From an uncultured Verrucomicrobiae bacterium (lineage in GTDB: Bacteria; Verrucomicrobiota; Verrucomicrobiia; JADLBR01; CALLMV01), in the NCBI GenBank assembly GCA_938005615.1, contig CALLMV010000023.1, positions 1 to 64,000 of the forward strand: 64,000 nt of DNA, given 5' to 3'. The position numbers and the translations under genes are program-made. Within the stretch, counting starts at the first letter, position 1. Every line of letters starts with the position of its first letter. This document shows positions 2,417-6,058 of the stretch, in pieces. The notes under the pieces are model-generated. The model saw nothing but the letters and a program-made list of their open reading frames with translations, was not told the DNA's origin and did no database searches.

Positions 2417-4381
2417 TTAACTTTGAGTGGTGTTTTGATCGTGGCAAGGTGTGGAGTTGCTGCGAGCTGGTGTGGTTGCCGTGTCTAGCTGTCCAACCGC
2501 GCGTAAAGCGGCTTCGGCAACTTCCCAGGCTGTGATCTGAGTGAGGCAGTTATAGTGCCCGAAGCGGCAGGTGCGTTGAAAGCAGGGGGAGCACTCAATT
2601 TTTTTATAAACAATCTGCGCCGGATCAACTGGGCGTGTGGCATCGGGTGATGTCGAGCCGAAAATTCCCACGGTGGGCGCACCTGTCGCGGCGGCCAGAT
2701 GCATGACTCCAGAGTCGTTAGAGAGCACTACTTGGGCGTAGGCGAGCAGGTCGATGAGTTCACCTAAAGATGTTTTCCCGGCGAGGTTTTCAGATCCTGG
2801 GAGTAATTCCTGAACACGAGCACACGCCTCGGCATCAGTCGCTGCACCAACGACTATCCAATGGAGAATAGTTTCTTGTAGCAATTTCCCTGCTTCGGCG
2901 AATCGCTCTGCAGGCCACATTTTCGCGGGGCCATAAGCAGCCCCGGGGGCGATAACTCCGTAAGAGAAATTTCGCGGTGCTGTATGTGACCTTTTGAGTA
3001 ATATTGGTTCAGTTCTGCTCACCCCGCCCCAGTAGTGGACTGCACGAGTCCAGGTGAGGGACTGATGCTCCTTGCCTTGAGCAATTTTTTCAAGGGGGAC
3101 TTTTATCGTAATCTCCCGTGCAGTGCGTCCTCGCACGCGGTAGCCGGCTCGGTGAGGGATCCCTGCAAACGTGGCTTCGAGCACGACTCGGAATGAGTTG
3201 GGCATCAGCACGGCCACGTCAAATCGTCCTTGTCGCAGAATTGCTGATGTCTTGAGCAAAGACTTTTTAGCGGGGATGGGAAGCACTTCGTCCAAAAAAT
3301 CACACCGCTCATACAGCTTGGTCAAACCAGTCGGGCATGCCACAGCTAAATACAGATCTGGCCGTGAAAGCTTCATATCGCGTAAAGCGCGCAAATGCAT
3401 CACAGCATCGCCCAGCCAGTTCATGGAACGCACTACCACACGCAGTTTTTTTAACTTCTCCGGCTCTGGCGCGTGAATTCTGTGTGCCCAACGCCCCAGT
3501 AGCCACTGCGGGTTGGGCAGCTTCCAACGCTCGTGGAACCACAACCAATCCCACGGGTAATCCCTAATGCGCTGTTCGATCATTTTGTTGAGGTGTGCCG
3601 TCTGCTGCTCGACACTGAACTCGCCTGGCTCGATGGGTGCCTGGGCCTCCACAACCCACCGGCTGCCAGGCAGCGTGCGCACAAGCAGTGGAATCAGGGG
3701 AGCCTTTGCACGAATAGAGAGCAGCGATGGCAGTCCGCTTGTTGAGGCAAGCCGACCAAAAAAATCGCACCAAATTCCATGTCTTCCGCTGTTTTGATCC
3801 GCAAGCACGGCCAGAGAATACCCTTGGCGAAGCGCGGAGAGAGATCCCTTCCAGGCGTTTTTTCTCTCGATCAAAACTACCCCATCCCGCTGACGTAGCT
3901 TCTGAATTTTTTTGTTCAAAAATTCATCGTGCAAACTCTGAAATAACGCCGCGTATTTTCCCGGACCAATGATTAGTGGCAACCGCGGTAGCACCTCCCA
4001 ACAGCCCAAGTGTGCAGTCACCACGATGGAGGGGCGTCCAGTTTTCTGCAGGTTTGTGTAATTAAATCCCGCCTTTAATTCAACGCGTTGGGCGTAATCC
4101 TCACCACTCAACTTGGCGACCTTCAGAGCACAAAGCGTGTTATGAAAAAAATGCCACCACACCAAAAACGAATCCTTCCCACTGGGCTTGCGATCAAAAG
4201 CCAAACACCAATTCTCCTTCATCACACGATTCCACCTGATCGGTAACGGGAAAAACACCGAGGCCAGTAACCCACTGAGCACACGGATCGCTCCAAACGG
4301 AAGCCGCCCAATTGCGTCCATCATCAAAGACAGCAACGCGGTTCTCAAAACAGATAACATCCCCACACTTTGTTGCCCCAC
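2417..4381 (-). CDS. fused lipid A-type acyltransferase (LpxL/HtrB-like) and heptosyltransferase (GT9/WaaF-like)
   Basis: 654 aa. N-half has VVTAHLGCWEVLPRLPLI and ADQNSGRHGIWCDFFGR (acyltransferase type). C-half has VVVRSMNWLGDAVMHLRALR and VLSNDSGVMHLAAATGAPTVGIFGSTSP (GT9 type). Confidence 0.9.
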   Translation of the reverse strand: MGQQSVGMLSVLRTALLSLMMDAIGRLPFGAIRVLSGLLASVFFPLPIRWNRVMKENWCLAFDRKPSGKDSFLVWWHFFHNTLCALKVAKLSGEDYAQRVELKAGFNYTNLQKTGRPSIVVTAHLGCWEVLPRLPLIIGPGKYAALFQSLHDEFLNKKIQKLRQRDGVVLIERKNAWKGSLSALRQGYSLAVLADQNSGRHGIWCDFFGRLASTSGLPSLLSIRAKAPLIPLLVRTLPGSRWVVEAQAPIEPGEFSVEQQTAHLNKMIEQRIRDYPWDWLWFHERWKLPNPQWLLGRWAHRIHAPEPEKLKKLRVVVRSMNWLGDAVMHLRALRDMKLSRPDLYLAVACPTGLTKLYERCDFLDEVLPIPAKKSLLKTSAILRQGRFDVAVLMPNSFRVVLEATFAGIPHRAGYRVRGRTAREITIKVPLEKIAQGKEHQSLTWTRAVHYWGGVSRTEPILLKRSHTAPRNFSYGVIAPGAAYGPAKMWPAERFAEAGKLLQETILHWIVVGAATDAEACARVQELLPGSENLAGKTSLGELIDLLAYAQVVLSNDSGVMHLAAATGAPTVGIFGSTSPDATRPVDPAQIVYKKIECSPCFQRTCRFGHYNCLTQITAWEVAEAALRAVGQLDTATTPARSNSTPCHDQNTTQS

Positions 4382-5281: not shown

Positions 5282-5328
5282 CTGGCACCCCTTGACACAA
5301 CCGCAAAATCAAAGAGGTTATACAAAGC

Positions 5329-5718
5329 ATGAAACTTCTCGCTCTAGTCATGACCTCTGTTCTGGCCCTTGGCCAGGGTCATGGCCTTAAAGCAACCTCG
5401 CAAGAAACATACTTCCCAGCATCCTCCGAAAACTGTTGCTGTGGAAATACGCAGTCTCTCGAAGCTGATCAGAACACCTGCTGCCTCAATAAAAACTTCG
5501 AGCAGCCGAATAACAAATCATGCAATTTCGATAATAAATGCTGCGACGCCTGCCTCTGCTCCAACATCTCCCTGGGCGGCTCCCCGAACGCCGCACTCTT
5601 CGTAAAAAACATGATCTCACCTGGAGCTTCCCGGATTGCCCTCTTCACTTTGCCTGACAACAACTCTCTGCGTTCGTTCACCACTCCCCCCGATTCCCCG
5701 CCACCGAAGCTCGCATAG
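5329..5718 (+). CDS. exported cysteine-rich protein, unknown function
   Basis: 129 aa ORF with a signal-like N-terminus (MKLLALVMTSVLALGQG) and 10 Cys within residues ~34-80 (CCCG, CC, CC, CLC). Confidence 0.6.
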   Translation: MKLLALVMTSVLALGQGHGLKATSQETYFPASSENCCCGNTQSLEADQNTCCLNKNFEQPNNKSCNFDNKCCDACLCSNISLGGSPNAALFVKNMISPGASRIALFTLPDNNSLRSFTTPPDSPPPKLA

Positions 5719-5823
5719 CATCCCCCTGAGTTGTAAATCCGAAGTTAAACAACCTCAAAATAAGCGTTGCTTACTCGGATTTGTGGAAACGATAACACCA
5801 ATATTATCCAGAAAGGTAATGTT

Positions 5824-5997
5824 ATGAAAAAGATCATTCTGACTTTGGCCGGGCTTATTCCCGCCGCTGTCTTCGCCTGCGCTGTGGCTGGCTCCTCCTG
5901 CAAATGCGGTGAGGATTGCACCTGCTGCGGCTGCTGCGAAGAAGGCGTGGAATGCACCTGCGGTGATAACTGCGAGTGCCCCTGCTGCAAAGAGTAA
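5824..5997 (+). CDS. small exported cysteine-rich (metallothionein-like) protein
   Basis: 57 aa from ATG 5824 (the ORF track starts upstream at 5767): signal MKKIILTLAGLIPAAVFA, then CKCGEDCTCCGCCEEGVECTCGDNCECPCC, 14 Cys in total. AGAAAGG just upstream and a terminator just downstream. Confidence 0.75.
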   Translation: MKKIILTLAGLIPAAVFACAVAGSSCKCGEDCTCCGCCEEGVECTCGDNCECPCCKE

Positions 5998-6021
5998 AGC
6001 TCGCTAGACATCACTAACATC

Positions 6022-6058
6022 AACCCCCGGAACCTAAAAACTCCGGGGGTTCTTTTTT
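6022..6058 (+). terminator. Rho-independent terminator of the Cys-rich gene
   Basis: Perfect 10-bp stem AACCCCCGGA/TCCGGGGGTT (6022-6031, 6042-6051) followed by CTTTTTT. Confidence 0.9.

Follow-up and report, generated by a model that had tools for sequence, protein, structure and literature searches.

A proposed two-gene metal module in an uncultured Verrucomicrobiae bacterium: a candidate nascent-chain sensor encoded upstream of a predicted exported metallothionein-like peptide

CutF, from the cutFOG operon of Rhodobacter capsulatus, is a short protein that combines a signal peptide with a Cys motif and a proline-rich C-terminus. Its gene precedes that of an exported effector, and when copper binds the nascent chain during export, this export is held up and the ribosome-binding site of the next gene becomes accessible (PMC9973294). 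CruR, a DUF2946 protein of Bordetella pertussis, is an exported protein encoded at the head of its operon, in which 45 residues separate a CXXC motif from a RAPP motif; copper relieves arrest at RAPP, leading to Rho termination, and CruR lowers a TonB-dependent transporter under copper (PMC9426467). The arrest was subsequently demonstrated in vitro (PMC12992588). CopL (NCBIfam profile NF033807) is a Cys-rich regulator that is encoded first and acts in cis on copper genes (summarised in PMC9973294). As usually described, regulators of the CutF and CruR type stand upstream of pumps, transporters, oxidases and chaperones, while bacterial metallothioneins are cytosolic; a review (PMC7558416) treats the latter with cytosolic Cu binding, and metallothionein is not mentioned in the main texts of the CutF (PMC9973294) and CruR (PMC9426467) papers. 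Here we describe a gene pair in which an upstream ORF built like these regulators precedes a metallothionein-like ORF with an export-type signal.

The pair lies on the forward strand of the 64,000-nucleotide stretch that we analysed (the window), from an assembly of 1.67 Mb that is 75.7% complete. As the preliminary description of this locus had reported, there are two tandem same-strand ORFs with signal-like N-termini: ORF1 (129 aa, 5329-5718), preceded by a Shine-Dalgarno-like AAGAGG (5312-5317), and ORF2 (5824-5997, start ATG at 5824), preceded by a Shine-Dalgarno-like AGAAAGG (5810-5816). The 105 nt between them (5719-5823) are A+T-rich and hold an imperfect inverted repeat (AAATCCGA...TCGGATTT). 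The genome-like codon usage of the two ORFs supports the conclusion that both are genuine genes: their codon-usage scores are 0.07 for ORF1 and 0.19 for ORF2, compared to -0.16 and -0.15 when synonymous codons are drawn at random (0 of 2000 as high) and to -0.26 to -0.34 for overlapping ORFs in other frames. ORF2 encodes, as claimed, a 57-aa peptide with 14 Cys, and both of its Cys modules are located, CKCGEDCTCCGCC at 5899-5937 and CTCGDNCECPCC at 5953-5988. The description of the pair as very Cys-dense is apt for ORF2, which has the highest Cys density of the 488 window ORFs of at least 40 aa, but overstates the case for ORF1, which ranks 32nd of these 488, with 10 Cys in 129 aa, all of them within aa 36-77 (5434-5559), a region that ends in CCDACLC. 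Export of ORF1, of ORF2 and of the related arrays considered below is predicted from signal-like N-termini called by a crude hydrophobicity rule, not by SignalP.

The strong terminator attributed to the end of ORF2 is real (6022-6058), with a stem of 10 pairs (6022-6031/6042-6051), a 10-nt loop and a U run (-18.5 kcal/mol, z -4.9); our consensus terminator scan missed this element because loops were allowed only up to 8. The flanking genes, both on the reverse strand, are an alpha/beta hydrolase gene upstream and a choloylglycine-hydrolase-type gene downstream. Since these neighbours point away from the pair or converge on it, ORF1 and ORF2 are probably a transcription unit of their own, which would give a single transcript. 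No copper gene adjoins the pair within the window. Elsewhere in the window, on the reverse strand (2417-4381), a single 654-aa protein joins a lipid A acyltransferase domain with a domain of the heptosyltransferase type.

ORF1 shares with CutF its small size, a signal peptide (predicted in ORF1), a Cys motif, a proline-rich C-terminus and a place before the gene for an exported-type effector. Judged by the published filter for CutF-like proteins (<150 aa, a signal peptide, Pro-Pro among the C-terminal 15 residues and another gene downstream on the same strand; PMC9973294), ORF1 falls within the limits in its 129 aa, in its Pro-Pro sequences, which begin 9, 5 and 4 positions ahead of the final residue, and in the presence of ORF2 105 nt downstream, while its signal peptide is called by the crude rule only. 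These prolines form the motif PPDSPPP (5686-5706), a candidate stall motif in view of CutF and CruR (PMC9973294, PMC9426467). With CruR, ORF1 has in common an exported-type protein encoded at the operon head and a Cys motif ∼45 residues before a near-C-terminal Pro-Pro, and with CopL a Cys-rich protein encoded first. The target of CutF is a multicopper oxidase, whereas ORF2 is metallothionein-like, and the role of CutF is experimental, whereas we infer that of ORF1. In contrast to CruR, ORF1 has no RAPP motif near its C-terminus (the tail is FTTPPDSPPPKLA) and is unmatched by the DUF2946 profile at E 1 or better; in contrast to CopL, it is unmatched by NF033807 and its downstream gene is not copAB. 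We therefore file ORF1 in neither family, and our claim is that it would work like them.

ORF2 has many of the features of plant, eukaryotic and bacterial metallothioneins: it is small, approximately a quarter Cys and free of aromatic residues in its Cys region, with CxC, CxxC-type and CxCGxxCxC motifs and two CxCGxxCxCxxC modules. It differs from them in its export-type signal and in matching no Pfam metallothionein model; indeed, at E 1 the curated metallothionein profiles of both Pfam and NCBIfam leave ORF2 unmatched, as do all other families of the two collections for ORF1 and ORF2 alike. The Csp1 copper storage proteins are also Cys-rich and exported (export being predicted for ORF2) and sequester copper outside the cytoplasm (PMC7558416), but Csp1 is a Tat-exported four-helix bundle, and the 57-aa Cys array of ORF2 is too short for such a fold. 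Searches of solved structures with ORF1 or ORF2 returned no convincing match; neuraminidase and factor H (E above 0.2) were discarded as chance matches. Single-protein homology searches with ORF1 and ORF2 gave nothing convincing in the order, in 385 genomes of the class, in genome_contigs (peptide) or in plasmids, and the class-level matches were discarded as resembling chance frames or shared signal peptides.

We scanned the genome_contigs collection with a motif written from features common to both ORF2 modules, CxCG[DE][DENK]CxCxxC. The scan found at least 118 stretches, most of them in Cys-dense frames; by our own estimate from base frequencies, ∼8 matches to the motif would be expected by chance. 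Signal-like starts by the crude rule were present in 32 of the matches listed, of which 29 were kept as exported arrays; a plant-like metallothionein, a pyruvate-oxidoreductase-like protein and a ferredoxin were left out. Nearest to ORF2 among the matches listed are arrays from a planctomycete (L119; Planctomycetota; CSCGENCTCCGCCKGGACTCGDDCTCC) and from an uncultured bacterium (L163). Each scores 137 in local alignment with the Cys region of ORF2 and beats 200 of 200 shuffles in which the Cys were fixed (z 4.8 and 3.8, respectively); thus, their sequence likeness to ORF2 exceeds what Cys content alone would give, although it may be convergent. When ten ORF2-related proteins were compared with profiles, two came near a family: L139 reached 16.9 bits against PF12749, which has a cut-off of 22, and L171 reached 17.8 bits against PF02068, where the cut-off is 31.8.

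The same scan touched proteins of other kinds. Six contigs of 230-598 bp (L073, L085, L117, L126, L131 and L138), which sit in Arthrobacter, Streptomyces, Myroides, Glycocaulis, Nitrosospira and Paraclostridium assemblies, carry the plant-type metallothionein end CKCGDNCTCNPCNCK and are probably plant contamination. A metallothionein-like Cys module stands before a peroxiredoxin-like domain in five proteins of rumen Opitutales/Verrucomicrobia (L098, L114, L118, L107 and L144) and before a GrpE-like domain in seven of gut Clostridia/Bacilli (L088, L094, L125, L127, L135, L164 and L175), both domains being named by eye.

Exported arrays are frequently accompanied by an upstream partner. Under a single detection rule, an exported Cys-rich ORF lay on the same strand just upstream of 13 of the 27 exported arrays (among the matches listed) with at least 400 nt upstream, compared to 20 of 450 control genes drawn from the scanned loci; the enrichment (odds ratio 20, p 7e-10) is to be read knowing that some of these loci had already served to draw up the rule and that the pairs are not mutually independent, many coming from related planctomycetes. 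Two pairs (L066 and L151) were added by hand, for at least 15 in all. The records that bear them belong mostly to Planctomycetota (several groups), and also to Bacteroidetes/Bacteroidota, Hydrogenedentota, ‘Deltaproteobacteria’ and unclassified bacteria. The gap between ORF and array is 52-240 nt (105 in the window), and, as in the window, the second gene is followed by a hairpin and U-rich stretch in each of the 11 additional pairs for which we read the sequence beyond it. The pairing is real and recurrent across phyla, and the earlier proposal of a metallothionein-like Cys cluster, exported by prediction, whose gene belongs with its neighbor is borne out by these similarly built pairs. Six exported arrays of the Myxococcales type have no upstream partner. 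One pair stands after a PepSY_TM gene, a known neighbor of CruR. In four Pirellulales-type loci (L074, L075, L121 and L167), a large permease-like gene follows the pair, and in L121 and L167 a purD-like gene precedes it; both gene names were given by eye and do not rest on profiles. L075 belongs to a cultured planctomycete, Lacipirellula limnantheis.

Besides a signal-like N-terminus, the partners carry CC and CxC clusters, and they are enriched for Pro-Pro at the C-terminus, which occurs within the last 16 residues of 6 of 12 partners, compared to none of 54 control genes (p 1e-5). Counted from the final Cys of the cluster, Pro-Pro comes 43 residues later in ORF1 and in one partner (L099), and 50-58 residues later in six others. 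The partner at L082 has a weak CopL match (NF033807, E 0.0049, 17.5 bits, cut-off 40). The combination of signal peptide, Cys motif and frequent Pro-Pro C-terminus in ORF1 and its counterparts makes a sensor and a sponge likelier than the two metal traps of the preliminary description, in that ORF1 and these counterparts are built like metal-sensing upstream proteins of the CutF/CruR/CopL type. We therefore lean, with modest confidence, towards a reading in which ORF1 is such a sensor and ORF2 is its exported metallothionein-like output, with metal binding, copper, export and regulation all put forward as inferences from this architecture.

According to this reading, ORF1 and ORF2 would be transcribed as one unit, and the Cys cluster of ORF1 would sense metal, most likely copper, during synthesis and export. 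The proline-rich C-terminus of ORF1 would then slow or stall the ribosome and so set expression of the next gene, and ORF2 would be exported as a thiolate peptide that binds metal outside the cytoplasm. If ORF2 is a sponge, an increase in its expression with metal, as for CutF, would be more sensible than a decrease, as for CruR. A ribosome stalled at the ORF1 tail might open a stem that is tentatively predicted between the region of the ORF1 stop codon (5714-5721) and that of the ORF2 start codon (5819-5826). In a fold of 5680-5850, the ORF2 start region is less accessible than in 59 of 60 shuffles, but taken in its entirety this fold is unremarkable (z -1.35). Moreover, sequestration of the ribosome-binding site of the second gene was seen in the window only, and we found no ribosome-binding-site stem-loop common to the pairs, which is a difference from CutF. 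The stem-opening step is therefore only a suggestion. The wider proposal is of a two-gene ‘sense and sponge’ module, undescribed in the searchable literature, in which a CutF/CruR-like nascent-chain sensor controls an exported metallothionein-like peptide in Planctomycetota, Bacteroidota, Hydrogenedentota and other lineages as well as in the window genome; to this we give an even chance.

The metal need not be copper. Metallothioneins bind several soft metals, and the pair might handle Zn, Cd, Ag or Hg instead, or might be a general thiol/redox buffer, in either case with or without ORF1 as a sensor. We consider this doubtful but worth keeping in view, given that most Cys-rich CutF-like proteins are encoded upstream of copper genes (PMC9973294), and that the window genome has a P1B-type ATPase (L223, G000:C14:7049-8731, 849 aa) that is Cys-rich at its N-terminus and has a CPC motif, although its score is below the Cu-ATPase cut-off.

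Alternatively, both proteins may bind metal outside the cytoplasm, ORF1 as a larger, non-regulatory chaperone or scavenger and ORF2 as a sponge. This would suit the fact that both are Cys-rich, exported-type and recur together, and it would also suit the half of the partners that lack Pro-Pro near the C-terminus and the partners that exceed 150 aa. Nevertheless, CutF too was initially guessed to be a chaperone, until it was shown to regulate in cis (PMC9973294). The Pro-Pro enrichment among partners, and a distance between Pro-Pro and Cys that is similar across lineages, are features that a protein which only traps metal could do without, and we judge this alternative unlikely.

It is very improbable that ORF2 binds no metal and instead has a structural role as a disulfide-bonded peptide of the envelope, like the small Cys-rich lipoprotein in the outer membrane of Chlamydiae, since this exported-type, Cys-dense peptide, despite a possible lipobox-like VFAC at Cys19 (with an unusual Phe at -2), does not match the chlamydial family in Pfam, and its CxCGxxCxC clusters are typical of metallothioneins, plant-type examples of which were returned by the same pattern scan.

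If ORF1 is indeed a sensor and ORF2 its output, many bacteria would export a thiolate peptide as a metal sponge and would gate its production through a nascent chain that senses metal. This would add a new class of effector to nascent-chain metal regulation and would suggest a role for many unannotated Cys-rich mini-proteins. Searches of open-access literature turned up no case in which an exported metallothionein of bacteria is accompanied by a sensor gene, and within this scope novelty is provisional.

Close to the window genome, the pair is scarce. Neither ORF1 nor ORF2 was found in four other genomes of the order, and the strict motif was found in no other genome among 390 of the phylum. 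A looser motif matched in 36 of 370 genomes of the class, where a reversed-pattern control gave about as many by eye and an out-of-frame control pattern matched in 8 of 370; a clear exported array was present in none of these 370 but the window genome. The pair is thus rare in its own phylum, which fits gene transfer or loss. In another genome of the class (G188, L027:1501-1665), an exported Cys cluster (CGCACC...VCCCH) is fused to an apparent CusF-type copper-binding domain.
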